Positions 1 through 17,587 of a stretch of 25,185 nucleotides of DNA are shown here, in pieces. Origin of the DNA: a virus; IMG/VR virus record IMGVR_UViG_3300032265_000489, positions 1 to 25,185 of that record; one strand, given 5' to 3'. Under the pieces are notes generated by a model that was not told where the DNA came from, did not search any database, and saw only the letters and a list, made by a program, of their open reading frames with translations. The stretch's first letter is position 1. Every line of letters begins with the position of its first letter. A program made the translations under genes and the position numbers.

Positions 1-3000
1 ACCACACAAGGAACTCCGTCAACCGTAACAGTTGCTAGTACAGCAACGTTGTATGCTAACATGCCTTTCTATGTAGTAAGTGCAGTTGGCGGGTTATCTA
101 CACTTACAGTATACTATGTAGCAAGTGTGTTAACTGGTACGACATTCTCAGTAACTGATTCAAGCGGTGGCACAGCCTTTACAAGTTCAATGTCAACTAC
201 TACAAGTCAGTCGGTTGCAATGTATGCCGCAGGATGGGATCATGTTATTCCAGGATACACTACGGTTATCACAACAGATTTAACTACAAACTATATCATT
301 GAGCCTCGTGTTTCTTATACTGCACCTGGTTATCGAGCAAATGCAAGAACTTTAAGCGGTGCCGGCAATTTATGGCAAGCAGTTACCTACGGTGCTGGCA
401 ATTATGTTGCAGTATCTAGCGGAAGTACTGCGGCTAGCTATTCAACTAACGGAACTACTTGGTCAGCAACTGGAGCATTAACAGGTTCTGCAACAGGTTG
501 GGCCGATGTTACGTATTTTGGCGGACAAAAAGCTAAAGCTACAGCAACAGTAGGCGGTCTTGGCGGTTCTGGAGCAACATTTAGTGCTACACTAGGATCA
601 GGATTAACAGCTGGACAGGTAGTGTCGGTAAAAGTATTAACACCTGGTTACAACTATACAACACCTCCTACAATTGTGTTCACTCCTACAAACGGTGGTT
701 CTGGAGCAACTGCTACAGCACAAGTACTAAACGGACAAGTTATTTCCGTTACTGTGGCTAACGGAGCAAGCGGCAGTGGGTACAACTCAGCACCAACAGT
801 TACTGCCTATACTGGAGCACTTACCAGTGTTACAATGAACAACTGGGGTATAAACTATAACAATACTTCAAAAGTAACTGTAACTGTTGATTTCCCAGCT
901 GGCTTAACACCGTCATCTTGGATAGCAAGTGCTACAGCAACTTTAAATAGTTACTACTATGTGCCAAGTACAGGTCTTATCTATAAAGCTACTACTGGAG
1001 GCACGTTTGGCACTGTAGCCCCAACACATACTAGTGGTAGTGCAAATAACAATAATGTTACTTTATTATATGTTGCTACACAAGCTATTTTAACTCCTAC
1101 ATATACTAACAACGGTATTAGCTCATTAGCAATAACAGTTGCTGGATATGGATACACAACAATCCCAACAGTTACTATTGTAGATACTAGTGCATATTTT
1201 GTTGCAATATCAGGTGATAGCACATCTGTTGCACTAAACACAGTAGCTAGTTTAGCCGCAACTTGGACTGCTGGTGCAAGTTGTCAAATAACTAATGCAA
1301 AATCTATAGCAACAGGTAATGGTTATCTAGTGGCAGTGGGTGGCGCAAGCGGAACAGCAAGTGCGGCATCAAGCACTGACCCAACAACTGCGTCAGGACA
1401 ATGGGTCAGCAGATCCGGTGCTATTACTGCATTGGGTGCAGGATACTACACTGGAGTTGCCTACGGTGCTGGAACATTCATTGCAGTAGCAAACGGATCT
1501 TCAGTTACGTCAGTTACAACAAATACAGTTACATGGACTGCTGGTGCAGTATTACCTGGTAGTATGACAACAGCAGTGAGCATTGCCTACGGTAATGGTC
1601 GTTTTGTAGTAATTGGATCAGACGGAAAAACAGCTTACAGTCTTAACTTTGGAACAACTTGGACTGCAGGAGTTTCTAATGGAATTTTAGCACAATTAAG
1701 TTCATCATACACATGGACTAAAGTTGCCTACGGTGAAGGCCTATTCATGGCAATAGCTAACGGCAGTGTTTGGGCAACTAGCCCAGACGGTGTTAACTGG
1801 ACTACACAAGCCGCTCCTAGCTCAAGTAACTGGAAAGGCCTAGCATTTGGAAACCCAATAGTTGAAACATCAGTTGGAGCAAGTCCTAGATTTGTAGCAG
1901 TCAGTAACACTAGCGGCACTATAGCGGCAAGTATAAGAACTGGCGCAAAGAGTATAGGTAGAGTCAAAGTTACTAGCGGTGTAGTAACCGAAGTTCGCAT
2001 GGTTGAACCTGGTAGCGGATATCCAAAAGGCAGCATAACAGCTACAACAGCTTCTACAAACATTATCACAGTTAGCGATACAACTAATTTAGTTGACAGT
2101 CAGCCTATTGAATTTACTGGATTAGATAGTTACGGATTATTCAGTAACATAACATATTATGTTATTGGTAGTACTATTGTAACCGATACATCATTCAAAG
2201 TAAGTGCCACAGCCGGCAGTTCAACACCAATGACACTGTCAACTGGTACAGGCTTAGCTGGAACATATCGTGCAGGTCCTATTGCAACAGTTACAGATAG
2301 TAATAAACTTATTGCTGTAAATACTCGCGTAAGATTAGGAGATGGTTCTCTAGCTAATCCAAGTTTTAGTAATAGAGGAACTGGTAATACAACCGCTACA
2401 GCTACTACATTAGGCGACGGATATAGCGATCTATTCCAAGCAAACCAATACATTAATATATCTAATTTGTTTAGCGTTCCGGCAGCAGGATCAAATATCC
2501 AATTTGGAACAATTTATCCAGGTACTGCATGGACACCGAGCACCTATGTTTCTGTAGGCAGTCAGTTAATTGCTACTACTGCGGTTACACTTAACAATGT
2601 AACTACCTACACTTATAATGTGTATACAGTAACTGTATCAGGAACTACTGGCACTACTGCTCCTAGTTTTGTATCTGGATCAGCAAGTGACGGTACTGCA
2701 ACATTAACATATGTTGGAACAAATCCAAATACTTGGTATAAACTTGTACAGGTTACTAACGTTCTAGGAGTTGCAGGTAATTACACTGCGCAGTTCCAGA
2801 TTAATCCAGCATTAACTACATACAATGCTCCAATTCACGGAACAACACTAACTACAAGATTAAAATATAGTCAAGTTCGTTTAACTGGACATGATTTCTT
2901 GTACATTGGTACTGGTAATTTTAACTCTACTAACTATCCATATGTAGTAGCGGCAAATGCTATCATTACTAATCAGCAGATTTCCAATGGCGGCGGTCGT

Positions 3001-3435
3001 GTGTTCTTTACAAGTACTGACCAAGACGGTAACTTTAACGTTGGTAACTTGTTCTCAGTTGCTCAAGCAACGGGTACTGCTACATTGAACGCTAATGCGT
3101 TTAACTTAACAGGTCTACAGAGCTTGCAGTTGGGTGGAATTTCACTAGGTGTTGGAAATGCGGTTATTACACAGTTCTCAACCGATCCTTACTTTACATC
3201 AAATAGTGATGCAGTTGTTCCAACACAGAAAGCTATTAGAAGTTACATTACTGCCCAAATTGGTGGTGGTTTGAGTACTTTGAACGTAAATACAATTACA
3301 GCAGGGCAGATTTATATTGCTAATAATACAATAACAAATACGCTAGGCTATCAAATTTTAGTGACAGCAAAAATGAATTTTACAGGCGGCATAGACGGAG
3401 CTCCCGTAGCCCTTGGGTTCTTTTTACAAAGATAA
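1..3435 (+). CDS. Large tail-fibre-like virion structural protein, 5' end outside window
   Basis: The frame is open from base 1, so the true start lies upstream; a TTG at 49 is only the first in-window start-like codon. At least 1,144 residues are present, dominated by Thr, Ser, Gly, Ala and Val with almost no Cys, typical of beta-rich phage fibres. Several repeats of the form YGxGxFxAVxxG...WT occur around nt 370-480, 1310-1410, 1450-1550, 1580-1670, 1720-1810 and 1840-1940, resembling BNR/propeller blades. Another repeat, GSGYxxxPTVT-like, occurs around nt 600-840 and 1090-1190. The last ~200 residues (nt ~2850-3435) read like the conserved tail of structural proteins in marine T4-like phages, with motifs TGHDFLYIGTGNF, TDQDGNFNVG and VVPTQKAI. 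It probably belongs to the tail fibre or baseplate periphery; the exact T4 equivalent cannot be named. Three small structural genes follow on the same strand. Confidence 0.75.
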   Translation, partial: TTQGTPSTVTVASTATLYANMPFYVVSAVGGLSTLTVYYVASVLTGTTFSVTDSSGGTAFTSSMSTTTSQSVAMYAAGWDHVIPGYTTVITTDLTTNYIIEPRVSYTAPGYRANARTLSGAGNLWQAVTYGAGNYVAVSSGSTAASYSTNGTTWSATGALTGSATGWADVTYFGGQKAKATATVGGLGGSGATFSATLGSGLTAGQVVSVKVLTPGYNYTTPPTIVFTPTNGGSGATATAQVLNGQVISVTVANGASGSGYNSAPTVTAYTGALTSVTMNNWGINYNNTSKVTVTVDFPAGLTPSSWIASATATLNSYYYVPSTGLIYKATTGGTFGTVAPTHTSGSANNNNVTLLYVATQAILTPTYTNNGISSLAITVAGYGYTTIPTVTIVDTSAYFVAISGDSTSVALNTVASLAATWTAGASCQITNAKSIATGNGYLVAVGGASGTASAASSTDPTTASGQWVSRSGAITALGAGYYTGVAYGAGTFIAVANGSSVTSVTTNTVTWTAGAVLPGSMTTAVSIAYGNGRFVVIGSDGKTAYSLNFGTTWTAGVSNGILAQLSSSYTWTKVAYGEGLFMAIANGSVWATSPDGVNWTTQAAPSSSNWKGLAFGNPIVETSVGASPRFVAVSNTSGTIAASIRTGAKSIGRVKVTSGVVTEVRMVEPGSGYPKGSITATTASTNIITVSDTTNLVDSQPIEFTGLDSYGLFSNITYYVIGSTIVTDTSFKVSATAGSSTPMTLSTGTGLAGTYRAGPIATVTDSNKLIAVNTRVRLGDGSLANPSFSNRGTGNTTATATTLGDGYSDLFQANQYINISNLFSVPAAGSNIQFGTIYPGTAWTPSTYVSVGSQLIATTAVTLNNVTTYTYNVYTVTVSGTTGTTAPSFVSGSASDGTATLTYVGTNPNTWYKLVQVTNVLGVAGNYTAQFQINPALTTYNAPIHGTTLTTRLKYSQVRLTGHDFLYIGTGNFNSTNYPYVVAANAIITNQQISNGGGRVFFTSTDQDGNFNVGNLFSVAQATGTATLNANAFNLTGLQSLQLGGISLGVGNAVITQFSTDPYFTSNSDAVVPTQKAIRSYITAQIGGGLSTLNVNTITAGQIYIANNTITNTLGYQILVTAKMNFTGGIDGAPVALGFFLQR

Positions 3436-3450
3436 AACGGAGAATAAAAT

Positions 3451-4598: not shown

Positions 4599-6020
4599 AT
4601 GCCATTAATATCGACAAGAGGTGCAGCCTCGGCAATGGGTTTTGGATTTGCTGGAGTTTCTATTCCTCAGCCACCAACTAGTGTATCAGCAAGCTACAGT
4701 ACGGCATATCAAAGTCCTATGACCGCAAGCATAACATTTGTTGCACCAGCATACACTGGTGGTTTGCCTATATTAGATTATACAGTTACCTCTAGTCCTG
4801 GCAGCCTAACAGCCACTGCAAATAGCACAACACTAACGGTGAGCGGATTGACTAAAGGTCAATCATATACGTTTACAGTAACAGCAAGAAATGCTGTGGG
4901 CAGTAGTATTGCTAGTGGGACTTCAAATAGTATAACACCAAGTACCGTACCTAATGCACCTACTAACGTTAGTGCCACAGGATATAACGGATATTCGACA
5001 GTTAGTTGGACAGCATCAAGTGATAGTGGCGGTGCCGGTACTGTTACCTATACTGTAGTCGCATCTCGAGACGGTTATACGGCCAGTACTACTGGTACAA
5101 GCACTAACATTACAGCTAGCAATGGTAATGCTGTATACTACTATGTTTATGCCAGCAATTCTAACGGTAATAGTGCAAACTCATCAAACAGCGGAACAGT
5201 AACACCGGTTCGTCCTGGAATTAACTCAGGTTATTCGTCAACATCTAACTCTGGTGGATATTATTATTTCTACTTTTACAATCCACAAGGTTATAATGTT
5301 GGAATTACTGGAAGCGTAAGTGCTGACTATCTTGTAGTAGCAGGTGGTGGTGGTGGAAATGGTAATTATTATGGTGGTGGTGGCTCTGGCGGTGGCGGCG
5401 CCGGAGCATACTTCGCAGGATCAGTAACACTTGGTCCTGGACAAGGCGGAAGTTGGAACGTTGGTGGCGGAGGAGGTGGCGGCCACGGTTGGCCATTCGT
5501 TGGTGGTGGTGGCGCAAGCCATACGCCTTGGGTATATGCTTACGGCGGTGGGTCGGGAGCCTCTGGACATCACAGTAATTCCCATCACGGCGCCACAGGT
5601 GGATCAGGCGGCGGCGGCTCGTCGCACGCCGGTGACGGCCATTATGGCGGCGGCAGTTACGGTGGCGGCCACAATGGCGGACATGGACATTTCCACGCAG
5701 GTGGCGGCGGTGGCGGGATCGGCGGTGCAGGACATAACAGTCCACAAGCCGGTAGCCATTATGGCGGCCAAGGCGGCTTCGGAACCTACAATAGTGTAGG
5801 CGGCTCACATTATGCAGGTGGTGGTGGCGGTGGAGGCTATCAAGGCCGTGTCTACACAAACAGTGCTGGATCCGGTGGCGGCAGCCATCACGCACAAGAT
5901 GCTCAAAGTGCTTATCAAAGTCACAGCGGTTCAGGTGGCGGCGGTGCTGGCGGAAACTTTGGACATTTTAACCAAGGCGGGTCAGGTACCAGCGGTATTA
6001 TTGTAGTAAGACATACATAA
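4599..6020 (+). CDS. Adhesin: two fibronectin III domains plus His-rich polyglycine tip
   Basis: The 473-residue protein starts 10 bases after the previous stop, behind AAGGAG. Residues ~20-112 and ~115-205 read as two fibronectin type III domains (PPTSVSAS...GLTKGQSYTFTVTARNAVG; PNAPTNVSATGYNGYSTVSW). After a Tyr-rich linker (~215-245, GGYYYFYFYNPQGYN), a glycine-rich domain fills residues ~250-473. It has runs of four to seven Gly separated by aromatic, Ser and His residues, and ends GTSGIIVVRHT, the usual end of phage glycine-rich domains. Polyglycine-sandwich tips of this kind are known from the gp38 adhesins of T-even phages such as S16, where loops between the glycine strands bind the receptor. 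About 20 His residues lie in this region, which is unusual. The DNA there (about 5340-5990) is far richer in GGC/GGT than its surroundings. A receptor-binding role is the best inference. Confidence 0.75.
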   Translation: MPLISTRGAASAMGFGFAGVSIPQPPTSVSASYSTAYQSPMTASITFVAPAYTGGLPILDYTVTSSPGSLTATANSTTLTVSGLTKGQSYTFTVTARNAVGSSIASGTSNSITPSTVPNAPTNVSATGYNGYSTVSWTASSDSGGAGTVTYTVVASRDGYTASTTGTSTNITASNGNAVYYYVYASNSNGNSANSSNSGTVTPVRPGINSGYSSTSNSGGYYYFYFYNPQGYNVGITGSVSADYLVVAGGGGGNGNYYGGGGSGGGGAGAYFAGSVTLGPGQGGSWNVGGGGGGGHGWPFVGGGGASHTPWVYAYGGGSGASGHHSNSHHGATGGSGGGGSSHAGDGHYGGGSYGGGHNGGHGHFHAGGGGGGIGGAGHNSPQAGSHYGGQGGFGTYNSVGGSHYAGGGGGGGYQGRVYTNSAGSGGGSHHAQDAQSAYQSHSGSGGGGAGGNFGHFNQGGSGTSGIIVVRHT

Positions 6021-6030
6021 GAGAATAAAA

Positions 6031-6690
6031 ATGCCAAGATTTAAATCGTTAGACAATATTTTAAACAATACAGGGGAAATTTTTGACCCTGCATGGCTTC
6101 AGGGCGATCATATTGTAGTTCCTCCTTTCCCAGACTGGACAGAATCAAGAGAAATAACAGTCGAAGATGTATTAGTTTGGGAAGTTATTAGCGAATCCGG
6201 ACTTGCTCACGGATTTTATGCCGCATGGAATCCTCATGCGGAATTTTATTTACATATGGAAAATGGTAAAATAGTAGGAACTCATCACGGGCATGTAGGC
6301 CATAAACACATAGAAAAAAAATTAGCTGAAAAGGGAATCTTACACGCACCTGTAAGAAACAAACAGCATTTACAGCATCACCCTATGTTAAGACATAGCG
6401 ATCAATTAGCATGGCATAAAAGTGACCATCATGACCAACCAATTTTACCAACTGTACCGCCGCTTACTATATCTCAACCTGATCCTAATAATGTTCAACC
6501 CCAGATAATCCCAGTAGATAATCCACAATCCCCACCAATAGAAATACAACAGTCGAATGCTATAGGATCAAATAGTCCGTCTCCAGTCTATACAGATCCT
6601 ATAACAGGCAAAACTGTAGAAGGTGTTATGCCCGACGGAACTGCACCTGCAGCCGAGGCGCCTAACATTCACTGGCCTCGCGCTAATTAA
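6031..6690 (+). CDS. His-rich protein of unknown function next to the adhesin
   Basis: The product has 219 residues and starts 10 bases after the adhesin stop (GAGAATAAAAATG). Residues 1-75 form an ordinary folded-looking segment (FDPAWLQGDHIVVPPFPDW, EDVLVWEVISESGLAHGFYAAWNPHAEFYLHM). Residues ~80-140 are very rich in His (THHGHVGHKH, HLQHHPMLRHSD, WHKSDHHD). Residues ~140-219 are Pro-rich and probably disordered, ending in IHWPRAN. No family is recognised. Position directly after the receptor-binding gene is typical for a tip-associated protein or fibre assembly chaperone, but nothing in the sequence proves this. Its stop codon overlaps the stop of the first halogenase gene on the other strand by four bases, with no terminator between them. 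Confidence 0.55.
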   Translation: MPRFKSLDNILNNTGEIFDPAWLQGDHIVVPPFPDWTESREITVEDVLVWEVISESGLAHGFYAAWNPHAEFYLHMENGKIVGTHHGHVGHKHIEKKLAEKGILHAPVRNKQHLQHHPMLRHSDQLAWHKSDHHDQPILPTVPPLTISQPDPNNVQPQIIPVDNPQSPPIEIQQSNAIGSNSPSPVYTDPITGKTVEGVMPDGTAPAAEAPNIHWPRAN

Positions 6691-8291
6691 GATTTACTAT
6701 AATACGTATCTTTAAGATATTGGTACAGTGTTTTAGTTTTGGCAGCATTCTTTTCCCACTTAGATTTTTTTAAGTCCCATATTCTACTAATTTCTGTTAT
6801 ATCTTCTTTTATATTTCTAGTTGTTTGAGCAGATTCTATTTCTTCTCTATGACGATTAATCATATTGAGATTCATTCCAGTTGCAATATAAGTAATGCCG
6901 GCAATATTAGGAGGATGTGCCCAATCTTTCATATATCTATGAGTAATATTATAAAATGCATCAGTTCTTCCGTTATATGGAAAATACGGATCTCCATAAT
7001 TATCTTTAAAAGATGTGTTACGTATAGATCTCCAGTATTCTGTGTCGTCCCTGTGAGATAATGCATAATGTAACGCTACAAATTTAGCAAATCCGTCAAA
7101 CATATCTCTAACAGTGACATTATACATGTCTCGATCAAATTGACTAATTTCTCTGCGTTGTAAAATATCAATTAATTGCATTAAAAACTCGTGGACTGAA
7201 AATAATCCATTTGATTCTAAAGGCTCAATAAATCCTGCACTTAATCCGATAGCAACTACATTTTTAACAAATGTGCGTTGATGTATCCCAATTCTCATAG
7301 AAATATCTTTAAATGTTAGACTATCAACTTCTTCTTGAGACCTAGGCACAGTCATTTTATTAGACATTAAGTATGCTTTAAATTCTTTTATAGCCTGTTC
7401 TTTTGTGATAAACTTATCGCTGTATACATAACCTGTACCAATCCTAGACCATAACGGGATATTCCAACACCATCCATTTTCAATAGCAGTACAATTAGTA
7501 TATCCTTGTAATTCGTTTTCTTTATCTTTATATGGTAAGTGTGTAGCTACTGCACGATTATTAGGTAAAATATGAGAATAACTTACAAATGGTTCGCCTA
7601 ATGCCTCACCTAACAGTAAACTACGCCATCCTGTGCAATCTACATAGAGATCGGCAGTTATTGAACGGCCGTCTTTTAAAGTCAACGAGGAAACTCCAGA
7701 GTCATCTGTCAAAATTTTATCAACTGATCCTTCTATGTGTGTAACACCGTTGGGTAAACAAATATCATTTTTTAAATATTGTCCAAATTTTACAGCATCA
7801 AAATGATATGCAATATCATATTTAGGATTAAATTGATCAAATTCTCCATTTTCGTTTAATGAAAATTTATTATTTTCATACAGAGCAGATGAAGGGAATA
7901 GACTTAATATCATATCCTGCACTGGAGTTTCGGGGTAGTAATACTTTTTTAAGTGCCATTCATGGAAAGGATTTCTATTAGGTTCAAAGACTGGTTTACC
8001 AAATGGGTATTGAAATCTACCACTATCTTTTTTATAAAAATCAGTAAATGCAATGCTTAGTTTGTACGAGGCATCTGTTTGAGCAAAGAATTTCGTTTCG
8101 TCTAAGCCTACATATCTAGCCCATTGCATAATGCCACCTATTGTAGATTCGCCAACACCTACAATGGGTATATCAGCCGGTTCTATAACTGAGATATCCA
8201 TGTCTGGATAAGTTTTCACTAATGTAGTAGCAGTCATCCATCCTGCACTACCTCCGCCTACTACTACTATTTTTTTAATTGTTTGATCCAT
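6687..8291 (-). CDS. Flavin-dependent tryptophan-type halogenase (copy 1)
   Basis: This 534-residue protein has the length and landmarks of the PrnA/RebH family, which uses FADH2, O2 and halide to make HOCl and pass it through a tunnel to an aromatic substrate. Visible are the FAD-binding GGGSAGWMT (12-20), VGVGES (44-49), a lysine at 77 in ASYKLSI equivalent to catalytic Lys79 of PrnA, the halogenase signature WCWNIP (274-279) followed by TGYVYS, and EPLESNG (356-362), whose second Glu matches Glu346 of PrnA. All expected catalytic positions are therefore kept. It is the last gene of the minus-strand block; its start overlaps the preceding halogenase by 17 bases, with GGGAAA upstream as a possible ribosome site. 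No flavin reductase is visible in the window, so reduced flavin presumably comes from the host. Substrate (free Trp, peptide or other aromatic) cannot be read from sequence. Confidence 0.9.
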   Translation of the reverse strand: MDQTIKKIVVVGGGSAGWMTATTLVKTYPDMDISVIEPADIPIVGVGESTIGGIMQWARYVGLDETKFFAQTDASYKLSIAFTDFYKKDSGRFQYPFGKPVFEPNRNPFHEWHLKKYYYPETPVQDMILSLFPSSALYENNKFSLNENGEFDQFNPKYDIAYHFDAVKFGQYLKNDICLPNGVTHIEGSVDKILTDDSGVSSLTLKDGRSITADLYVDCTGWRSLLLGEALGEPFVSYSHILPNNRAVATHLPYKDKENELQGYTNCTAIENGWCWNIPLWSRIGTGYVYSDKFITKEQAIKEFKAYLMSNKMTVPRSQEEVDSLTFKDISMRIGIHQRTFVKNVVAIGLSAGFIEPLESNGLFSVHEFLMQLIDILQRREISQFDRDMYNVTVRDMFDGFAKFVALHYALSHRDDTEYWRSIRNTSFKDNYGDPYFPYNGRTDAFYNITHRYMKDWAHPPNIAGITYIATGMNLNMINRHREEIESAQTTRNIKEDITEISRIWDLKKSKWEKNAAKTKTLYQYLKDTYYSKS

Positions 8292-9852
8292 ACACTATTT
8301 TTTCCCATGTTTTTGTATCTAATCCAGATTGTATTATTCTATGGACTGTTGAATTTAGTTTATAATACGATTCATAAAATTCTAATATTAATTTTGGATT
8401 TTTAGTTAATAACTTTTCTTTTAATTTATCTTTATTAATAAGATTAAGTCCTGCTAATACTTGAATATAACTTTCATAACCGTATATATTAAGATTTTTG
8501 CTATCGTTTGGAACACTTCCGTGGCTCCATGCGGCTATCATATTTTTTAATCTAGATGTTGTTCTCTTTTTTTCATAAGCATGACCGCGCCAAAATTCAG
8601 TATCTCTTCGATGTCCTCTATAATGCAACGATAAGAAATCCATTGTTTCTAATTGAAAACTGTAAAATTCATCATTAAATATTTCAATTTCCCACGGTGT
8701 TGCATCTAAACTCCATAATCGATCAACTAACCCAATCCCGACTATAACAGAACCTAATCCATTTGCTTCTAAAGGTTCTAAAAATCCTGAACTAATTCCA
8801 ATAGCTATAACATTTTTATGCCAACATTTTTTAACTATACTGGGGGTAAATTTAACACTAGCAACTGGGTCAATTTTTTTATTAAATCTTTTTTCTGCTT
8901 CGTTTAATGCTGTATCTGAAGAAATTAAATCTGGATCGTATATATACCCATTACCAGCCCTATGATGCAAGTTGATATTCCAACTCCATCCGTATTCCAT
9001 AGCATATACCCGTGTATGATTTATTATTTCAGGCTCATTATCCCACCAAGCAACTACACTACGGGCTGGAAAAATATCAGTAAAATCGTCAAATTTTACA
9101 CCTAATTTTTTTTGTGTAAGTAATCGAGCAAATCCACTACAATCAAAAAAGAAATCACCTTTAATAGTACGATTGTTGTCTAATATTAGGCAATCGATAT
9201 TGCCTGATTTAGTTTGTACCGAATCTAAATACTTTCCTTCAATTAAAGTAATTCCTTTTTTTAATCCCATAGATTTAAGATAGTCAGCATTAGCTCTACT
9301 ATCAAAATGCCACATAAAATTAACAAACTGACTGTATTGAGTTTCATTTCCAGCAGGTACGTGCGGCAAATATTCGTTTACCATAGGAGTTATCGGTAGT
9401 CTGTTATTATGTATTAACCCACTACAAAAAAATAAAGTTTCTAACGGAACTTCTTCAGCAATGGCTGCCAATATAAAGTCTTTACTTGTATGATCTGAAA
9501 AGTCTCTAGCGGATCTAACGCCTTTATGCCTCGAAAGCCATTCTTGATTGTAATTTAAATTAACCATTCCGTGAGTGAATTTAGTTCCTACTTCATCCCA
9601 GTCGTAAAACTCACTACCTAATTTAGGCATAGCATTGACCGCTACAATCCAATTATCTAAATTAATACCTAAATATTCAAGGAAGCTAGTAAAAACTGTA
9701 GATCCGCTTTCACCTGCAATAATTGGTGGTTGGTTAGGATCTTCTATAACTGTCACTTGTAGATTTGGAAAAGTTTTATTAAAATATAAAGCAGTCATCC
9801 AGCCGGCACTGCCTCCACCTAATACTACAATTTTTTTAGATTTTTGATACAT
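8275..9852 (-). CDS. Flavin-dependent halogenase-like protein (copy 2)
   Basis: The 525-residue protein belongs to the tryptophan halogenase family and is closer to copy 3 than to copy 1. It has GGGSAGWMT (12-20), AGESGS (46-51), Lys77 in AMPKLGSEFYDW at the catalytic lysine position, DCSGFARLL (237-245) and EPLEANG (359-365) with the catalytic Glu at 362. The signature WxWxIP is altered to WSWNIN (289-294), followed by LHHRAGNGYIYDP. The chemistry is probably still flavin-dependent halogenation, since both catalytic residues are present, but the changed motif and the Ala-Asn after the Glu suggest a different substrate or halide site. The gene overlaps copy 3 upstream and copy 1 downstream by 17 bases each, so the three are probably translationally coupled. 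GGGAAAG upstream of its ATG may be the ribosome site. Confidence 0.85.
   Translation of the reverse strand: MYQKSKKIVVLGGGSAGWMTALYFNKTFPNLQVTVIEDPNQPPIIAGESGSTVFTSFLEYLGINLDNWIVAVNAMPKLGSEFYDWDEVGTKFTHGMVNLNYNQEWLSRHKGVRSARDFSDHTSKDFILAAIAEEVPLETLFFCSGLIHNNRLPITPMVNEYLPHVPAGNETQYSQFVNFMWHFDSRANADYLKSMGLKKGITLIEGKYLDSVQTKSGNIDCLILDNNRTIKGDFFFDCSGFARLLTQKKLGVKFDDFTDIFPARSVVAWWDNEPEIINHTRVYAMEYGWSWNINLHHRAGNGYIYDPDLISSDTALNEAEKRFNKKIDPVASVKFTPSIVKKCWHKNVIAIGISSGFLEPLEANGLGSVIVGIGLVDRLWSLDATPWEIEIFNDEFYSFQLETMDFLSLHYRGHRRDTEFWRGHAYEKKRTTSRLKNMIAAWSHGSVPNDSKNLNIYGYESYIQVLAGLNLINKDKLKEKLLTKNPKLILEFYESYYKLNSTVHRIIQSGLDTKTWEKIVYGSNN
8920..9006. repeat. 87-bp tract identical to 10481-10567 (halogenase copies 2 and 3)
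   Basis: These 87 bases match 10481-10567 with no mismatch, in the same orientation. They encode the segment containing the WSWNIN motif. A second identical tract of 54 bases links 8587-8640 with 10148-10201. Synonymous sites are identical across the tracts, while flanking parts of the two genes differ clearly. Confidence 0.9.
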
Positions 9853-11389
9853 ATATTTTTCTTTCCCACTCTGTTACTGTGATTCCTGTGTTTATTATTT
9901 TAATTGCATTTAAATTGTAATTATTATACACATCATAAAACGTTTTTAAAAGATTAGATTTTGTTCTTAATAATCGAGTTTTTAGTTTATTTTTATCAAT
10001 CAAATTAAGACCAGTTGCTACTTGTAAATTACTTTCATACCCGTATACATTAACACGATACTTGTCGTAAGGATATTGTCCTTCAGACCAGGCATCTAGT
10101 ATATATCGAAGACGCGGTGTTACTCGATTTTTTTCATAGGCATGACTGCGCCAAAATTCAGTATCTCTTCGATGTCCTCTATAATGCAACGATAAGAAAT
10201 CAATAAATTCTTGTTGTTGATTAGAATACTCTTCATTGAACATTTTAACTACATATTCTGTAGGATCAATACACCATGTTCTTTCAATTAGTTGAAGCGT
10301 CGAAATAACCTGAGTAAGACCGTTTGACTCTAAAGGCTCCAAAAACCCTGAACTAATTCCTATGGCTATAACATTTTTATACCAAGGAGTTGTTATTGTT
10401 GAAGGAGTAAAATTAATACTAGCAACCGGATCAATCTTTTTACCAAACTTTTTTTCTATTTCAGAGACTGCATTGTCTGGAGAAATTAAATCTGGATCGT
10501 ATATATACCCATTACCAGCCCTATGATGCAAGTTGATATTCCAACTCCATCCGTATTCCATAGCATACACTTGTGTATGGTTAATCCAGGTAGGAATGTC
10601 GTCCCACCAAGCAACTACACTACGAGCTGGAAAAATATCAGTAAGATCTTTAAAAGTTACACCTAATTTTTTTTGTGTAAGTAATCGAGCAAATCCGCTA
10701 CAGTCAAAAAAGAAATCACCGCTAACTTCTAAATTATTTGTTAATTTAATTGATAAAATATTACCGTCTAAGTCCTGTATAGAATCAATATATTTGCCTT
10801 CTTTTAACTCAATACCATTTTTTATCCCTACATTTTTAAAATATGAAGCGTTTGCTCTACTATCAAAATGCCACATTAAAGGATTAACTGGTTTGTATAC
10901 TACTGTATTGTTAATTTGATGGGGTATAATCGGCAACCTATTATTATGTATTAATTTGTTACAAAAAAATATGTTGTCTAAAGATATATTTTCAGAGATT
11001 GCAAACAATAAAAAGTCTTTATCAATATCGTCCCAAAATTTACCTGTTGAGTTTTTTCGATTAACATTGACCCAATCGTTAGAATAATTATTATCAATTA
11101 GTCCGTGAGTAAATTTAGTTCCTACCCCGTTCCAGTCATAAAATTCACTACCTAATTTAGGCATAGCATTGACTGCTACAACCCAATCATCCAAATCAAT
11201 GCCTAAGTAAGAAATAAATCGAGTAAGTATAGAAGATCCGCTCTCACCAGCAATTATAGGTGGTTGATTAGGATCTTCTATAACTGTTACATTATATTCT
11301 GGGTATCGCTTATTAAGAAATAGTGCAGTTAACCAACCTGCACTGCCGCCACCTAGCACTACAAGTTTTGCACAATCGTTCTTTATCAT
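9836..11389 (-). CDS. Flavin-dependent halogenase-like protein (copy 3)
   Basis: The product has 517 residues, with GGGSAGWLT (13-21), AGESGS (47-52), Lys78 in AMPKLGSEFYDW, DCSGFARLL (229-237), the altered signature WSWNIN (281-286) and EPLESNG (351-357) with Glu354 as the predicted second catalytic residue. Much of residues 225-300 and 345-435 is nearly the same as copy 2, while the region after residue ~100 and the C-terminus differ. This indicates an ancient tandem duplication with later homogenisation. It is the first halogenase of the block, 29 bases after the NUDIX stop; that gap is AT-rich and has no clear ribosome site, so its translation may be weaker than that of its neighbours. 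Placement in the family is firm; the actual substrate is unknown. Confidence 0.85.
   Translation of the reverse strand: MIKNDCAKLVVLGGGSAGWLTALFLNKRYPEYNVTVIEDPNQPPIIAGESGSSILTRFISYLGIDLDDWVVAVNAMPKLGSEFYDWNGVGTKFTHGLIDNNYSNDWVNVNRKNSTGKFWDDIDKDFLLFAISENISLDNIFFCNKLIHNNRLPIIPHQINNTVVYKPVNPLMWHFDSRANASYFKNVGIKNGIELKEGKYIDSIQDLDGNILSIKLTNNLEVSGDFFFDCSGFARLLTQKKLGVTFKDLTDIFPARSVVAWWDDIPTWINHTQVYAMEYGWSWNINLHHRAGNGYIYDPDLISPDNAVSEIEKKFGKKIDPVASINFTPSTITTPWYKNVIAIGISSGFLEPLESNGLTQVISTLQLIERTWCIDPTEYVVKMFNEEYSNQQQEFIDFLSLHYRGHRRDTEFWRSHAYEKNRVTPRLRYILDAWSEGQYPYDKYRVNVYGYESNLQVATGLNLIDKNKLKTRLLRTKSNLLKTFYDVYNNYNLNAIKIINTGITVTEWERKIYVSKI
10481..10567. repeat. 87-bp tract identical to 8920-9006 (partner copy)
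   Basis: This is the partner of the tract in halogenase copy 2, lying 1,561 bases away as a direct repeat. Together with the shorter tract at 10148-10201 it could allow recombination that deletes or fuses the two halogenase genes. Confidence 0.9.
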
Positions 11390-11418
11390 TGATTATATAT
11401 CAAAAAATAAAGCTACGT

Positions 11419-11874
11419 TTATAGGTCGTGAATGATGTCGATTATTGATTGAATCTTAGTTTCGATAATTCGATTTCGAAGACTTAGGTCAAGTCCTTTA
11501 TGCACAGGTTTTGGCAAACAGTCTAGATTAAACCAACCCCATGCTATATGCTCATCGCTAAGAATTGGTACAAATTCATTTTCAACCACACAAAAATATG
11601 TATGAAAATTAAACATACTGTCGTTAGACACAAAACGTTCTAAGGGTAGTGTTTTTTTAATATCGGGGAGCAAGCCGAGTTCTTCTTCAATTTCTCGTTT
11701 AAGGCCTTGCCATGCAGATTCGCCTAAGTGATTTGTACCCCCAACTAGACCCCAACGACCTGCATGCTTGCCTTCACACTTTTGTAACAGCAAGAATCGT
11801 CTTGTACTACGAGCACATATCAATGCTCCGCTACAATCAATTTGTTCGTTAGTTAGGCTAATTCTAGTCTCCAA
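11419..11874 (-). CDS. NUDIX hydrolase
   Basis: The 151-residue protein carries a complete NUDIX box. Gly46, five residues, Glu52, seven residues, then REIEEELGL (60-68) fits GX5EX7REUXEEXGU exactly. The surrounding sequence (GRWGLVGGTNHLGE) gives the usual beta strand before the catalytic helix, and the total length is that of a single-domain enzyme. Such proteins cleave a nucleoside diphosphate linked to another group with Mg2+; whether this one acts on dNTPs, NADH, FAD, sugar nucleotides or capped RNA cannot be told from the sequence. It overlaps the end of gp15 by 22 bases and lies directly before the halogenases, so it is in the same late transcription unit. A link to flavin turnover for the halogenases is possible but unsupported. 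Confidence 0.9.
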   Translation of the reverse strand: METRISLTNEQIDCSGALICARSTRRFLLLQKCEGKHAGRWGLVGGTNHLGESAWQGLKREIEEELGLLPDIKKTLPLERFVSNDSMFNFHTYFCVVENEFVPILSDEHIAWGWFNLDCLPKPVHKGLDLSLRNRIIETKIQSIIDIIHDL

Positions 11875-13457
11875 TTACCACGCTTGTATTCGCCTACAAA
11901 TGTTTTTGTCCAGGCTACCCCGTTCCATTTGTATTGAACCATAGTATAGTAATTAGTTTGATAGACTATCTGATCTGTTGTATCGTGAGCTGAAAATACT
12001 ACATGCCATGTATGACCATCCCACTCTATAATGTCGTTAGCATCTGCAATAAAATCACTACCGTCATTGTTTTTCCATGCATCGGGACCGTCTTCATTAA
12101 GATTTAACACATATTGTACTGTACTGTTAATAGCAATAGGTTGAGTGGTTACAATTAATAATTTACCGTTGCGTTCTATAGAAGGATTTAAACTTACTTC
12201 TGTTCCGTTTACAAATACATGACAAGATTTTACACGATTAAAATCTATTCCAGTATCAACAATTTGACTACGACTAGTAGCAATATATGTTTCTCTAATC
12301 CCGCCACCAATATTTTCTAATATTAGATATCGAGTTCCTGCTACAGGTTCGGGTAAACCACTGCCTCTAGGGCCTTTCAGTGTAGGATCAATCACAGCGT
12401 CAAAACTGCCTCTTGAGCCTGCGGCTCTACTAGGCCCCGCAATCAATGTGTTAGTTGGAAAAGTATCAGGATCCCATGCAACACTAACCATACTATCATC
12501 TAATGGATTAACACTTATTGTTCCAGAAACTTCAGAAGTATCTTGTTGTAGCAAATAGATTTTAGTAAGCCCGGCATGATACTTTCCGGGAAGTTGATCT
12601 AACACTATGGTCCAATGTAACCAGGCTCCGGGCTGTGTATCACTGATCAATCGTATGCTGTCGTCATTGACCAGTATGTCAAAATTACCAATAGTAGTTT
12701 TTTTATTAAACATTGGCGCACCTGGAACTTTTGATCCACTGTTAGGATCGTTACCTAAGCCGTTGATGTAATCAGGAATTGAAGGATCTACTCCGTCAAA
12801 CATACTAGAAACTAAATTGGTAACAACTCCTAATTTTTTAACTTTTGCAGGAGGAGTTAACCATACTGGTGTAGTCAATGTTAGTGTTGCAACATCGATA
12901 CTAGTAGCTTGTCCTACCGGTACTGTGCGACTAGTGAAGGTTACATTATCAAGATCAACAACACTTAAACTAGTCCAATCAACGAAGTTATCCGAAGTTT
13001 GTATTTCTAAACTAGGATTAAACAATACTAAAATTTGTTCTAATATTTGTAATTTTTGATCAGTACTAGTTGACCATATGTCTGCTTTTAAGGTTAACTT
13101 AAAAGGAGTAGGCATCAGACGCTCAACAGTATAGTTAGCTCCTTGTCCGCTAGTATATGCGCCGGTATCCGGATCTATATCTCTCTCACGAATATTAATC
13201 TTGCCAATATAAGAAGCATCACTAAGTCTAGTACGATCTAGTTGGAAATCGCTAATATAGACAGCAATTTTAGGAGCACTTAATAAAGTATTCTCACTGT
13301 TTTGGTTAATAATGTTATCAACTTGTCTATCAGGATCACCATAGATTACCGGTATGCGAACCAGTGTACCGTCACCATATTTGACCACAAAATTGCTTAA
13401 CAATCTTATGACTTGAATTAGGTATCTTCTTAATTGCCCGTCGTAGTAGTATAACAT
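11853..13457 (-). CDS. 15: Proximal tail sheath stabilisation protein, gp15-like
   Basis: The N-terminal ~210 residues match the architecture of T4 gp15, which forms the ring capping the tail tube and sheath and joins the tail to the neck. Seen are MLYYYDGQLRRY at the start, then VRIPVIYGDP, PKIAVYISDFQLD, TVERLMPTPFKLTLKADIWS, LQILEQILVLFNPSLEI and the strand region ending TTPVWLTPPAKV. T4 gp15 has 272 residues; this one has 534. The extra C-terminal half (residues ~215-534) is beta-rich and ends with repeated hydrophobic-WNGxxW hairpins (EWDGHTWHVVF, QYKWNGVAWTKTF). Its ATG shares one base with the gp14 stop (TAATG), so translation is probably coupled to gp14. Confidence 0.75.
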   Translation of the reverse strand: MLYYYDGQLRRYLIQVIRLLSNFVVKYGDGTLVRIPVIYGDPDRQVDNIINQNSENTLLSAPKIAVYISDFQLDRTRLSDASYIGKINIRERDIDPDTGAYTSGQGANYTVERLMPTPFKLTLKADIWSTSTDQKLQILEQILVLFNPSLEIQTSDNFVDWTSLSVVDLDNVTFTSRTVPVGQATSIDVATLTLTTPVWLTPPAKVKKLGVVTNLVSSMFDGVDPSIPDYINGLGNDPNSGSKVPGAPMFNKKTTIGNFDILVNDDSIRLISDTQPGAWLHWTIVLDQLPGKYHAGLTKIYLLQQDTSEVSGTISVNPLDDSMVSVAWDPDTFPTNTLIAGPSRAAGSRGSFDAVIDPTLKGPRGSGLPEPVAGTRYLILENIGGGIRETYIATSRSQIVDTGIDFNRVKSCHVFVNGTEVSLNPSIERNGKLLIVTTQPIAINSTVQYVLNLNEDGPDAWKNNDGSDFIADANDIIEWDGHTWHVVFSAHDTTDQIVYQTNYYTMVQYKWNGVAWTKTFVGEYKRGNWRLELA

Positions 13458-14752
13458 TATAAATCTGCCTTAGGTCTAAGTGCTTTAGATAGAGCTTGTC
13501 TTTCTTGAACTTGCTGTCCGGCAATTTCATTAACTGTAGTATTATTAATAAAACCGCCTTTGAGAGTATTTCTCGTGTCGGTGTTAGTCATAGTTGTTCT
13601 TACATCATCTTCATACTTGAGCCATCTGCGACCGTCATATTTGAACAATCTATTAGGTAAAAAATCTGTGCGTAAAAAGAAATCTCCGTTTTGCGCTTGT
13701 ACAGGGAAAGAAATGCCGTGACCAAAGTAATAACCATTATCTGGAAACCCGTCACCTACTAAGTAGCCCGTATAACCAGTTCGGCTTGGACGCTCATGGA
13801 ACGCACTGGCATCTTCGGTATCCATATCTGCTGTTATTGTAGATTCGTCTACAGTTTTTAATAATGGATGTCCAGTTTCTGGATCAACTGCTAGAGTAAA
13901 GAACTGTCTAGTTTCATAACCGCTTAACGGAGCATCAGCTTCTGCTTGGGCTAGTATTCCATCGTTAATGCTTAGATTAATGGCCGCAGTATTAGTTACA
14001 CCGGCAAGTGTAGTACCAGTATAAGGTGTAAAGAATCCCACATCTGGAGGCGTTGCCGAACTAGTAGTATTAGTTACAGTATACAACTGCCCTTGATAAC
14101 TGATAATCTGTCCTGCTGTATAGGTAGTTCCGGCTGTATAAGGCCCAACAAAGTTAGCATTAGCATCTGTTGGTACATTAAAAATACTGGCATACTGTTG
14201 CTGGTTACTGATCTTGTTTAATTTTAGTCTGTATAAATGTGGATACCAGGTACGACTAAAACCTTCAGCGGCACGCCCTACTTCTGTGATAACAAAGAAT
14301 CTCGGCAGTGCTACATCGGCAGTGTTTAATGCAAATTCATCTTTAAGATGCGGCAGTTCCACTACATCACCTGATATAGGCTTTCGGCCAATGTACTGAA
14401 TAAAATCATTAATGTGTACTGTCATAAAAACAGTATCGTTATCAATAAACAAACCAAATTGACTTAGATTAAAATCAATATCTGCTACATTATAAATGCC
14501 ACGGATTGTATAGATACTAGTGTCATAAGTTCTATCACGATTTTCTAATAACAAAAGATCTTGTATGTTTGTTATGCTAGTAGTAGCATAATTAGGCGTT
14601 GCCGCCGTAGCATTTGTAGGATCAGTGTTAGTGCCAAGATATTTGTGTAGGTACACATCAGTACCTCCAACCTGGAACATTTCAGAGATCTGACGATCTA
14701 TGTACTTGTAGTCATTGCCCTTTTCGGGACGATATAGTGATAAGCGTGGCAT
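13457..14752 (-). CDS. 14: Neck protein gp14-like
   Basis: The start chosen gives MPRLSLYRPEKGND, 431 residues; an upstream ATG at 14788 would run through the promoter region and adds an implausible leader. The N-terminal half resembles T4 gp14, a neck ring protein acting with gp13 when heads join tails: IQMRG-like IYTIRGIYNV, LSQFGLFIDNDTVFMTVHIN and GDVVELPHLKDEF line up with the FGMQVQDEVTLSIN...GDLIYFPM region I recall from T4. T4 gp14 is 256 residues, so this version carries a large beta-rich addition, including FLRTDFLPNRLFKYDGRRWLK written here only in part as KYDGRRWLKYEDD near the end. It is the first gene of the minus-strand block, divergent from gp13. The ATG lies five bases after a late promoter octamer and has no Shine-Dalgarno sequence. 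Confidence 0.75.
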   Translation of the reverse strand: MPRLSLYRPEKGNDYKYIDRQISEMFQVGGTDVYLHKYLGTNTDPTNATAATPNYATTSITNIQDLLLLENRDRTYDTSIYTIRGIYNVADIDFNLSQFGLFIDNDTVFMTVHINDFIQYIGRKPISGDVVELPHLKDEFALNTADVALPRFFVITEVGRAAEGFSRTWYPHLYRLKLNKISNQQQYASIFNVPTDANANFVGPYTAGTTYTAGQIISYQGQLYTVTNTTSSATPPDVGFFTPYTGTTLAGVTNTAAINLSINDGILAQAEADAPLSGYETRQFFTLAVDPETGHPLLKTVDESTITADMDTEDASAFHERPSRTGYTGYLVGDGFPDNGYYFGHGISFPVQAQNGDFFLRTDFLPNRLFKYDGRRWLKYEDDVRTTMTNTDTRNTLKGGFINNTTVNEIAGQQVQERQALSKALRPKADL

Positions 14753-14757
14753 AGTGA

Positions 14758-14765
14758 TATTTATC
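14758..14765 (-). promoter_or_regulatory. T4-type late promoter for gp14 block
   Basis: The minus strand reads GATAAATA, one mismatch from the T4 late consensus TATAAATA. The octamer ends six bases before the A of the gp14 ATG (five bases between), so the expected transcription start coincides with the start codon. It should drive gp14, gp15, NUDIX and the halogenases. Confidence 0.6.
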
Positions 14766-14766
14766 G

Positions 14767-14774
14767 AATAAATA
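14767..14774 (+). promoter_or_regulatory. T4-type late promoter for gp13
   Basis: The plus strand reads AATAAATA followed by TAATGGGAGACCAAG and the gp13 ATG at 14790. The predicted start is near 14780, giving a leader of about 10 bases containing GGGAGA (14779-14784). It is separated by one base from the oppositely directed octamer of the gp14 promoter. Confidence 0.6.
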
Positions 14775-14789
14775 TAATGGGAGACCAAG

Positions 14790-15569
14790 ATGACTGCACA
14801 AACAACTGAAACGCCAAATCCGCAACAAGAACGCCAAAATGTGTTCGATTATGTGCGACTAATGCTAGGCGATGGCATGATTGATGTTGAATTAGATCCT
14901 GCACACTACGAAGTTGCCCTTGAAAAAACACTGAGTCGTTTCCGTCAACGCAGTCCTAATGCTGTTGAAGAAAGCTATTTGATGCTTGAAACTAAAAAAG
15001 ACATCAATGATTATATTTTACCTAAAGAAGTAATTTCAGTTAGAAACGCACATCGTAGAACACTGGGATCAAGAACAGGTGGGGGAACAGGCAGTAATTT
15101 TGAACCTTTCAATTTGGCCTACACTAATACCTATTTGTTAAATTCAACTATGTTAGGCGGCATTGCTACCTACGACATGTTTGCACAATATCAAGAGATG
15201 GTAGGACGCATGTTTGGTAGCTACATTGAATTTGAATATATTCTATACAGCCGTACACTTAGAATTCTACAGCGCCCCTTTATGGACGGCGAAGTTATCA
15301 TGTTGCAGGTCTATAACTATCGTCCAGATTATGTCTTGTTAACAGATTTATATGCTAAACAATGGATACGAGATTATACTCTAGCACATTGTAAAATTAT
15401 TCTAGGCGAAGCTCGTAGTAAGTTTCAAAGTATTGCTGGCCCACAAGGTGGCGGCAGTCTAAACGGTAATGATCTAAAGAGTGCAGGTAAAGAAGAAATT
15501 ACAGCATTAGATAAAGAATTAGAAACACTTGTATCAGGTGGTACTGGATATACATTTGTTATTGGATAA
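14790..15569 (+). CDS. 13: Neck protein gp13-like
   Basis: The 259-residue product is soluble, with no signal peptide. It matches the gp13 neck protein of marine T4-like phages: an N-terminal region RQNVFDYVRLMLGDGMIDVELDP, a middle with FEYILYSRTLRILQRP and VIMLQVYNYRPD, and a conserved C-terminal segment KQWIRDYTLAHCKIILGEARSKF followed by GGGSLNGNDL and a helix ending TALDKELETL. T4 gp13 has 309 residues and with gp14 forms the collar to which tails attach. GGGAGA lies six bases before the ATG. In T4, 13, 14 and 15 are codirectional; here 14 and 15 point the other way from a shared promoter region. Identification is by remembered family pattern, so it is strong but unverified. Confidence 0.8.
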   Translation: MTAQTTETPNPQQERQNVFDYVRLMLGDGMIDVELDPAHYEVALEKTLSRFRQRSPNAVEESYLMLETKKDINDYILPKEVISVRNAHRRTLGSRTGGGTGSNFEPFNLAYTNTYLLNSTMLGGIATYDMFAQYQEMVGRMFGSYIEFEYILYSRTLRILQRPFMDGEVIMLQVYNYRPDYVLLTDLYAKQWIRDYTLAHCKIILGEARSKFQSIAGPQGGGSLNGNDLKSAGKEEITALDKELETLVSGGTGYTFVIG

Positions 15570-16532: not shown

Positions 16533-17207
16533 ATGATCATAGGTGTGTGCGGTTTTATCGGCTCGGGCAAAGATACAGTAGCTGACTATCTTACCAACTT
16601 CCATGGCTTTCGTCGAGAGTCATTTGCCAACAGTCTTAAAGATGCTGTAGCACATGTATTTGGCTGGGATCGAACCATGCTCGAAGGCCGCACAAAGACA
16701 GCCCGCGAATGGCGAGAACAAGTAGATCCGTGGTGGGCAGAACGTTTAAATATGCCTAATCTTACTCCACGCTGGGTACTACAATACTGGGGTACAGAAG
16801 TTTGCCGTAAAGGTTTTCATGACGATATTTGGATTGCCTCATTAGAAAATAAACTCCGCAATAGTAAAGACGACATTGTTATTAGTGACTGCCGTTTTCC
16901 TAACGAAATTAAATCAATCAAAGATGCAGGTGGTATTGTAGTTCGTGTAGTTCGCGGGCCTGAACCTGAATGGTATGACCTAGCATTACAGCACAATCAA
17001 GGCTCGGACAGAGCAAATATAGAACTGGCAAAACTAAAAATCCATACTTCGGAAACAGCGTGGGTGGGTACAGATTTCGACCATATACTGGACAATAACA
17101 ATACTATCGATGACCTTTATCAACAGGTCAAAAATATCATAGGTCTGGAACAAGATCGCCCTGACGCCAGCGAAACCCTTCCTTATGCAGAATTCGAGAA
17201 CAATTAG
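16533..17207 (+). CDS. 1: Deoxynucleoside monophosphate kinase, T4 gp1-like
   Basis: The product has 224 residues. It opens with a P-loop, GFIGSGKDT (7-15), the form seen in T4 gp1, and continues with FANSLKDAVAHVFGWDRTMLEG, TPRWVLQYWGTEVCR, DIWIASLE, VISDCRFPNEI and GGIVVRVVRGPEP, matching the gp1 order (substrate-binding helix, LMQALGTDL-like motif, VVPDTRQ-like Asp-Arg strand). The enzyme phosphorylates dNMPs to dNDPs with ATP for phage DNA synthesis in the cytoplasm. It has its own sigma70-like promoter, suiting early need. The last ~24 residues lie over the opposite-strand HNH gene and look like incidental coding (rich in D, E, P, N). T4 gp1 has 241 residues. Confidence 0.85.
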   Translation: MIIGVCGFIGSGKDTVADYLTNFHGFRRESFANSLKDAVAHVFGWDRTMLEGRTKTAREWREQVDPWWAERLNMPNLTPRWVLQYWGTEVCRKGFHDDIWIASLENKLRNSKDDIVISDCRFPNEIKSIKDAGGIVVRVVRGPEPEWYDLALQHNQGSDRANIELAKLKIHTSETAWVGTDFDHILDNNNTIDDLYQQVKNIIGLEQDRPDASETLPYAEFENN

Positions 17208-17478
17208 CACAAATTGTTTTTAAATTTGCAGGACGAGAATTATTTAAATTTCCGTCGATGTGATATACATTAAATTGTTCTTTAAAAGAACTTTTAAATC
17301 CGCACTTCTCACATAGGTTCTTCATACGGTATCCGTCTTGGTACCACTTAGGAAGACCTTTGTTCACTCCCCCATAGCGCAAACACACTTCACACTTGCT
17401 CCGATAGTAGGTGCGTCCGTCTTTGTGATAGTTAACAGCGGCCGGTCTTTGGCCGCACATACATAGTGGTCTTGACAT
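17137..17478 (-). CDS. HNH-type zinc endonuclease-like protein
   Basis: The chosen start gives MSRPLCMCGQRPAAVNY, 113 residues; the upstream ATG at 17586 would cross the promoter region. CxxC pairs at 29/32, 56/59 and 90/93 (plus C6/C8) suggest one or two zinc ribbons. The core VYHIDGN (71-77), NLKTICANC (85-93) and His98 fit an HNH nuclease active region. I recall near-identical small proteins in many marine T4-like phages, usually labelled HNH endonuclease. It could be a homing nuclease or a structural zinc protein; the strong conservation and lack of a disrupted host gene argue for a fixed phage function. The final 71 bases overlap the dNMP kinase on the other strand. Confidence 0.75.
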   Translation of the reverse strand: MSRPLCMCGQRPAAVNYHKDGRTYYRSKCEVCLRYGGVNKGLPKWYQDGYRMKNLCEKCGFKSSFKEQFNVYHIDGNLNNSRPANLKTICANCSRILHKEGFRWRQGDLVPDL

Positions 17479-17483
17479 AATTG

Positions 17484-17491
17484 TATTTATA
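17484..17491 (-). promoter_or_regulatory. T4-type late promoter for HNH gene
   Basis: The minus strand reads TATAAATA, the exact T4 late consensus, followed by CAATT and the ATG at 17478. The predicted start is the A of the ATG, and there is no Shine-Dalgarno sequence, so a leaderless mRNA is expected. Confidence 0.65.
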
Positions 17492-17515
17492 CTGCCCTTT
17501 TTGCGCCCTTTTTGG

Positions 17516-17538
17516 TTGGTTATATTAAGCCAATTTTT
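17516..17538 (+). terminator. Weak terminator-like hairpin after dNMP kinase
   Basis: TTGGTT (17516-17521) can pair with AGCCAA (17528-17533, one G-T pair) around a six-base loop, followed by five T. The stem has only two G-C pairs, so this is tentative. Confidence 0.3.
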
Positions 17539-17547
17539 GTTTTTATC

Positions 17548-17555
17548 AATAAATA
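17548..17555 (+). promoter_or_regulatory. T4-type late promoter for tail sheath gene
   Basis: AATAAATACT matches the late octamer in all but the first base. The predicted start near 17561 leaves a leader of about 27 bases with AGGAGA (17575-17580) seven bases before the gp18 ATG, which decides that start over an upstream in-frame start at 17501. Confidence 0.65.
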
Positions 17556-17587
17556 CTAGTAGAACAAAAACCTTAGGAGATCCCAAG

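Follow-up and report, generated by a model that had tools for sequence, protein, structure and literature searches.

VirX1 of cyanophage Syn10 (PDB 6qgm) is the first viral flavin-dependent halogenase to have been characterised, and it prefers iodide (PMC8407142, review). Its gene, CPUG_00131, is the second of the Syn10 halogenase pair. A comparison of cyanophages from 2010 lists one genome with two prnA genes (PMC3037559). Already known are viral halogenases (since 2010 at the latest), tandem pairs of them, and clusters in jumbo cyanophages that combine halogenases with oxygenases; the literature surveyed gives no natural substrate for a viral halogenase. Here we describe a 25,185-base virus contig of IMG/VR (record IMGVR_UViG_3300032265_000489, the whole of which is called the window below) that carries three halogenase genes in a row, named hal3, hal2 and hal1 in the order of transcription. 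Comparison with the genomes of other phages suggests that such enzymes decorate a tail-tip protein. That VirX1-type halogenases are tied to Gly_rich_2 tail genes is new here, no report of this link having been found in the part of the literature covered. The three genes are:

6687..8291, minus strand: hal1, flavin-dependent halogenase of the VirX1 clade by its place in the tree, 534 amino acids (aa); PF04820, E 4.9e-106
8275..9852, minus strand: hal2, flavin-dependent halogenase of the second phage type, 525 aa; PF04820, E 6.5e-84
9836..11389, minus strand: hal3, tandem duplicate of hal2 according to BLASTP, 517 aa; PF04820, E 1.3e-76

The assignment of all three proteins to the halogenase family is near certain from sequence comparison. 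PF04820 (Trp_halogenase) matches each protein across most of its length, with scores of 355.7, 282.8 and 258.8 bits for hal1, hal2 and hal3 against a curated cut-off of 21, and all three match PHROG 2928. The first-pass annotation of this DNA had described three intact PrnA/RebH-family halogenases in tandem at 6687-11389, and the full-length open reading frames (ORFs) and PF04820 matches bear this out; the overlaps between neighbouring genes are of 17 nucleotides (nt) each, as it had said, and lie at 9836-9852 (hal3/hal2) and 8275-8291 (hal2/hal1). The GxGxxG dinucleotide-binding motif is GGGSAG in each protein (residues 12, 12 and 13). The flavin adenine dinucleotide (FAD) motif, the catalytic lysines (K77, K77, K78) and the catalytic glutamates (E359, E362, E354) are intact, as that annotation had it, the lysines and glutamates exactly at the positions that it named. 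The lysine and glutamate columns align with Lys75 and Glu354 of PyrH (numbered by hand), and all of these positions are conserved columns across 187 non-redundant relatives. The WxWxI(P) motif reads WCWNIP in hal1 and WSWNIN in hal2 and hal3; the latter two keep both tryptophans and the isoleucine, with asparagine in place of the last proline, which is found there in 168 of the 187 relatives. An AlphaFold2 model of hal2, on which alone the fold was judged (predicted local distance difference test score 87.7, predicted template modelling score 0.89), superimposes on 48 solved halogenase entries with Z scores of 36-47 over 455-485 residues (36.4 for VirX1). An artefact, or a single gene split by frameshifts, is ruled out, each ORF being a complete halogenase.

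Compared with the tryptophan halogenases PrnA, RebH and PyrH, the window enzymes share the fold, the FAD motif and the catalytic lysine and glutamate; this is in contrast to the C-terminal part, since the alignment of hal1 to them ends at about residue 440. The best PDB match of hal1 is VirX1 (6qgm, 337 bits), aligned over residues 5-532. Free tryptophan as the substrate is not supported by sequence alone. Among the nearest solved relatives of hal2 and hal3, by both sequence and fold, are BrvH (6frl) and Xcc4156 (6y1w), which are bacterial enzymes with only ~25-27% identity to them. A flavin reductase of family PF01613 is absent from the window and from 13 relatives, other reductase families not having been searched, and the reductase partner is probably supplied by the host.

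hal2 and hal3 are 61% identical (BLASTP) and are sisters in the tree with support 100, whereas hal1 is only 27-32% identical to them. hal1 falls inside the VirX1 clade, which comprises 60 rows with support 100 in a first tree and 64/65 rows with support 82/100 in a second. hal2 and hal3 fall in a separate clade of 24/25 rows (support 99) together with the halogenases of P-SSM2, S-PM2, Syn1, S-SRM01 and HTVC008M. Bacterial and phage halogenases stand largely apart in the tree. Judging from these placements, the operon in the window joins the two main types of phage halogenase, one of them duplicated, and the equal 17-nt overlaps would be consistent with a tandem duplication in which the junction was copied together with the gene. 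The proportion of G and C (GC) is 0.32-0.33 in the halogenase genes versus 0.39 in the rest of the window.

Two genes on the opposite strand converge on the array:

4599..6020, plus strand: Gly_rich_2 tail-tip-like protein, convergent with hal1, the proposed substrate; PF21722, E 3.3e-5, and fn3; Gly_rich_2 domain at 5316-6011
6031..6690, plus strand: small protein between Gly_rich_2 and hal1, kept near hal1 in other IMG/VR phages (alignment A2, 10 relatives)

hal1 lies ~1 kb from the Gly_rich_2 protein, and this proximity recurs in a manner that depends on the type of halogenase. In a sample of 20 complete isolate genomes, a halogenase of the VirX1 clade lies at most 3 kb from a PF21722 protein in 10 of 11 genomes (10 of 12 if S-MbCM25, perhaps a basal member of the clade, is counted), versus 0/13 for other halogenases, a class in which the second copies of S-RIM44, Sf-CH11, P-TIM40 and Sf-FP1 were placed without the tree (Fisher exact, 6e-6). 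The division into clades was checked with the second tree. Circular permutation of the proximity of VirX1-clade genes gave p values of 0.02-0.07 in ten single genomes and 0.86 in one, and a combined value of 1e-6, which is an optimistic figure. The order Gly_rich_2, one small gene, halogenase is repeated in several cyanophage genera, and non-VirX1 halogenases, some of them in the same cyanophages, are not at the Gly_rich_2 site. The Gly_rich_2 protein of the window consists of 26% glycine, 7.2% tyrosine and 4.2% histidine, and its tyrosine and histidine content makes it rich in residues open to electrophilic halogenation.

Small protein 6031..6690 has no match in Pfam, in PHROG or among phages, and its low-confidence structure model has no fold match; a role as tail adhesin or chaperone was therefore dropped. 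Its homology to A5, the small protein in the same position in cyanophages, was not shown. We also note that in Synechococcus phage S-SRM01 (L109, 6998-8455) a hal2-clade halogenase has a tail fibre gene on one side and, on the other, a gene whose annotation is gp37-gp38 adhesin tip complex; this adhesin-annotated neighbour has no match to PF21722.

Syn10 offers the closest comparison. Like hal1, VirX1 belongs to the same clade, aligns over the full length, is the last gene of an overlapping tandem array and lies beside Gly_rich_2 tail genes. The order in Syn10 is Gly_rich_2, Gly_rich_2, small protein, halogenase, VirX1, 2-oxoglutarate (2OG)-Fe(II) oxygenases, a JmjC protein and DUF6445; JmjC is a family known for protein hydroxylation. 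The differences are that Syn10, a marine cyanophage, has halogenases of the VirX1 clade only, two in number, whereas the three of the window include two from the other clade and belong to a relative of jumbo phages. The IMG/VR relatives of the window (loci L092-L098 and L102, L099, L100, L101, L009, L044 and L074, with L095 on the one contig of 270 kb) resemble it in that gp15 and a NUDIX hydrolase gene precede the halogenases in most, a hal1-type gene is usually the last in the row, and convergent Gly-rich tail proteins occur in several. They differ in having many interleaved 2OG-Fe(II) oxygenases. The jumbo relative L095 carries three Gly_rich_2 proteins, four halogenases and about ten oxygenase-like ORFs, as well as a homologue of A5 (hhalign 99%). 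Small genes of the 2OG-Fe(II)-oxygenase-like kind are densely packed around the halogenases in L095 (1870-7527 and 15277-17163) and L099 (11726-18709), with up to about ten in a cluster; a permutation of oxygenase proximity on the IMG/VR fragments was not significant (p 0.21). Related proteins of PHROG 7084/17480 flank the halogenase array of L095 on both sides (7783-8544 and 14546-15280), and ORFs that look similar to them by eye adjoin halogenases in L044 and L099.

We tentatively favour a reading in which the three proteins are late enzymes that would halogenate aromatic residues, chiefly tyrosine and also tryptophan or histidine, of the phage's own Gly-rich tail-tip protein. In this enzyme family, reduced FAD (FADH2), O2 and halide are known to yield hypohalous acid, which is passed to the catalytic lysine. 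A host flavin reductase would supply each window halogenase with FADH2, and the lysine would deliver the halogen of the hypohalous acid so formed to an electron-rich aromatic ring activated near the catalytic glutamate. The target would be the product of the neighbouring gene, modified during or before tail assembly, with tuned adhesion perhaps as the benefit, and the two enzyme types (one VirX1-like, two of the second type) may serve different residues or steps. Late expression, activity, substrate and benefit are points that we infer. The first-pass annotation had left the target among a virion protein, a host aromatic metabolite and a peptide; a virion target stands as the best of the three, and the tail-tip protein is its putative form.

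Flavin halogenases that act on ribosomal peptides, namely MibH, SrpI and ChlH, offer precedents, and MibH needs prior hydroxylation of a proline (PMC12615548, PMC12518702). By analogy, this need would suit the presence of oxygenases beside phage halogenases. VirX1 itself has an open active site and accepts bulky substrates (PMC8407142, review). A wider form of the proposal, which we regard as possible though somewhat less probable, is a widespread virion-modification module, present in at least two distant phage groups (cyanophages and the jumbo relatives), in which halogenases, often with 2OG-Fe(II)/JmjC oxygenases, would halogenate and hydroxylate Gly-rich tail-tip adhesins. Since the VirX1 type, unlike the other phage type, is physically tied to the genes for Gly-rich tail-tip proteins, there is a definite protein that mass spectrometry could examine in cultured phages. 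If the tail-tip reading is true, phage adhesins carry enzymatically halogenated residues and these enzymes are candidates for halogenating intact proteins; if the module exists, host recognition draws on chemistry that the 20 amino acids do not provide. We know of no report of enzymatically halogenated residues on phage adhesins.

Several points weigh against the tail-tip proposal. The isolate phages tested share ancestry, for which neither the permutation values nor the Fisher value are corrected, and the combined p value is therefore optimistic. S-B64 is the exception in the VirX1 clade, its halogenase sitting among replication genes. On the IMG/VR fragments, many of which are short, the proximity of Gly_rich_2 was not significant (p 0.06), and the association is therefore argued from the complete isolate genomes only. 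No 2OG oxygenase was found in the window. Relatives of hal2 and hal3 in cyanophages lie mostly within regions of metabolic genes, and none of these phage enzymes has a known activity or substrate in vivo. Linkage by itself is moreover no proof of a protein substrate, because tail-fibre regions are hot spots at which passenger genes accumulate. A rather unlikely alternative, that the genes are mobile cargo in such an insertion hot spot and act on a substrate unrelated to their neighbours, would agree with the very different cargo carried by relatives in the same insertion interval and with the low GC of the halogenase genes; it does not agree with the recurrence of the Gly_rich_2, small gene, halogenase order in several cyanophage genera, nor with the location of non-VirX1 halogenases elsewhere.

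The placement of hal2-clade cyanophage genes among metabolic genes agrees better with the tailoring of a small molecule, in which a host or phage-directed metabolite (tryptophan, indole or tyrosine-derived) would be halogenated late as part of a viral biosynthetic cluster. Such a role was proposed by Iyer and colleagues for the halogenase-carbamoyltransferase-2OG cluster of jumbo cyanophage S-SSM6a (PMC7824862), and in L044 an ORF of 595 aa that lies between the halogenases is a putative carbamoyltransferase, while another ORF has only a sub-threshold match to glycosyltransferases. VirX1 also halogenates many small aromatics in vitro (PMC8407142). Nevertheless, no other biosynthetic enzyme was recognised in the 25 kb window, and a small-molecule role leaves unexplained why VirX1-clade halogenases track the Gly_rich_2 tail gene. 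We consider it somewhat doubtful, and prefer tail-tip halogenation to it because of the peptide-halogenase precedents and the open site of VirX1. A further alternative, in which a protein or glycan of the host's surface or envelope, and not of the virion, would be halogenated to block superinfection or alter the cell surface, is suggested by a bacterial tandem array (Hellea, L116) that adjoins a gene for a TonB-dependent receptor; being an analogy with one bacterial locus, and late expression being late for such a role, it is very improbable. Decay into catalytically dead FAD-binding proteins is the least probable of all: the array relative L101 does have glycine at the catalytic glutamate (9989-11464), and many members of bacterial arrays have serine or threonine at the lysine or glutamate positions, but the three genes of the window are full length with lysine, glutamate and FAD motifs intact, and the model of hal2 shows the complete fold of a halogenase.

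The halogenases are the final genes of a minus-strand operon with the order gp14-gp15-NUDIX-hal3-hal2-hal1. Its upstream features are:

14758..14764, minus strand: ATAAATA motif resembling a late promoter, the proposed operon start, 5 bases before the gp14 ATG
13457..14752, minus strand: gp14-like neck/virion protein (virion structural protein by PHROG 11591); the ATG at 14752 is taken as its start, the ORF being open to 14788
11853..13457, minus strand: gp15-like tail sheath stabiliser; PF16724, E 1.5e-19, and PHROG 11196
11419..11874, minus strand: NUDIX hydrolase, whose pairing with gp15 is conserved in jumbo relatives; PF00293, E 2e-15

The gp14, gp15 and NUDIX genes overlap, and a gap of 29 nt separates NUDIX from hal3. 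No minus-strand terminator was predicted from 14752 to 6687. ATAAATA is the core of the T4-type late promoter. There are five copies of it in the window, at 14758-14774, where the gp14 and gp13 copies stand back to back, 17484, 17549 and 23927; each lies 6-24 nt from the start of a gene (gp14, gp13, HNH, tail sheath and 23952), and none is found within the gp15-hal1 stretch. Strand-matched start-proximal zones make up 1.5% of positions, and under independence the placement of five out of five there has a probability of ~7e-10, a figure that is indicative only because the motif was picked after a looser scan. ATAAATA thus looks like the late promoter of this phage. gp14 of the relative L074 has a similar start and the same upstream motif, and the lone opposite-strand halogenase of L099/L100 is directly preceded by it. 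A TATAAT-like stretch just before hal3 may be an internal promoter. The gene overlaps, the lack of a predicted terminator and the confinement of the late motif to the position before gp14 make co-transcription of the operon, and hence late co-transcription of the halogenases with gp14-gp15, well supported at the level of sequence. The first-pass annotation had likewise placed the halogenases downstream of gp14-gp15 on the same strand and proposed late co-transcription; it omitted the NUDIX gene between gp15 and hal3, the continuity with gp14-gp15 stands, and the motif suggests the late timing. We also note a CBM_5_12 carbohydrate-binding module at residues 217-247 of the gp14-like protein (ORF 13460-14788, minus strand).

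That annotation had regarded three halogenases in a row as unusual, single ones being known in T4-like cyanophages; the comparison is outdated, and such arrays are less unusual than it supposed. Overlapping pairs exist in cyanophages S-RIM44, P-RSM6, Syn10 and P-TIM40, with an overlap of 11 nt each. In IMG/VR there are four in a row in L092, L093 and L095-L098, three plus one in L099/L100, and three in L101, and these arrays lie downstream of gp15-NUDIX wherever the locus covers that region. They were retrieved with the hal2/hal3 alignment A1 (hal2 or hal3 alone gave none, the sampled peptides being too specific); several of these contigs appear to be nearly identical copies of a single phage, which means that there are fewer independent lineages than loci. 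Bacterial tandem arrays were found in 37 of 55 fetched loci, mostly in Caulobacterales and sphingomonads. Given the cyanophage pairs, the IMG/VR rows and the bacterial arrays, three in a row is a recurrent architecture rather than a one-off; arrays of three to four halogenases in phages with gp15-NUDIX synteny were not found reported in the part of the literature covered.

With respect to the phage itself, the cyanophage-like setting implied by the first-pass annotation gives way to another affiliation. The tail sheath and gp15 are not nearest to those of cyanophages (Kyanoviridae) but to those of jumbo T4-superfamily phages, namely Sinorhizobium Phosso, Agrobacterium Atu_ph07 and Pseudomonas Paride/PA5oct, and by these genes the window is part of the genome of an uncultured phage of the T4 superfamily with jumbo-phage kinship. 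These four nearest isolates share the gp14-gp15(-NUDIX) synteny, and Paride has the same layout as the window, with gp14-gp15-NUDIX followed by convergent genes; the gp15-NUDIX order is also shared by L009, L044, L074 and L093-L098. Unlike the window, none of the four was seen in the organism tallies of the halogenase searches. A near-identity search of the phage collection with the whole window gave no match. At the edge of the window lies one further tail gene:

1..3435, plus strand: tail fibre protein, its 5' end beyond the window; PHROG 9851 (tail fiber), E 5.7e-44

Variant halogenases were observed in several other loci. In L044 (12562-14966) and G006 (10795-13007), paired short (~400 aa) overlapping halogenase-like proteins lie beside full-length ones and form a reduced subfamily with weak PF04820 scores. 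Many bacterial arrays (L111 at 1917-3443, L113, L115, L116, L121, L125, L134 and others) contain one member with serine for the catalytic lysine and threonine (or serine) for the catalytic glutamate, a recurrent and apparently non-catalytic paralogue. The Actinomycetia phage DSL-LC01 (L108, 3094-9636) carries a divergent halogenase with aspartate at the glutamate position; a glycosyltransferase and collagen-repeat proteins are annotated in genes beside it. Within the window, an HNH-endonuclease-like ORF (17137-17586, minus strand) lies on the opposite strand between the deoxynucleoside monophosphate kinase and tail sheath genes; a TATAAATA of its own precedes an internal ATG by 5-6 nt, and the ORF is possibly a homing element.

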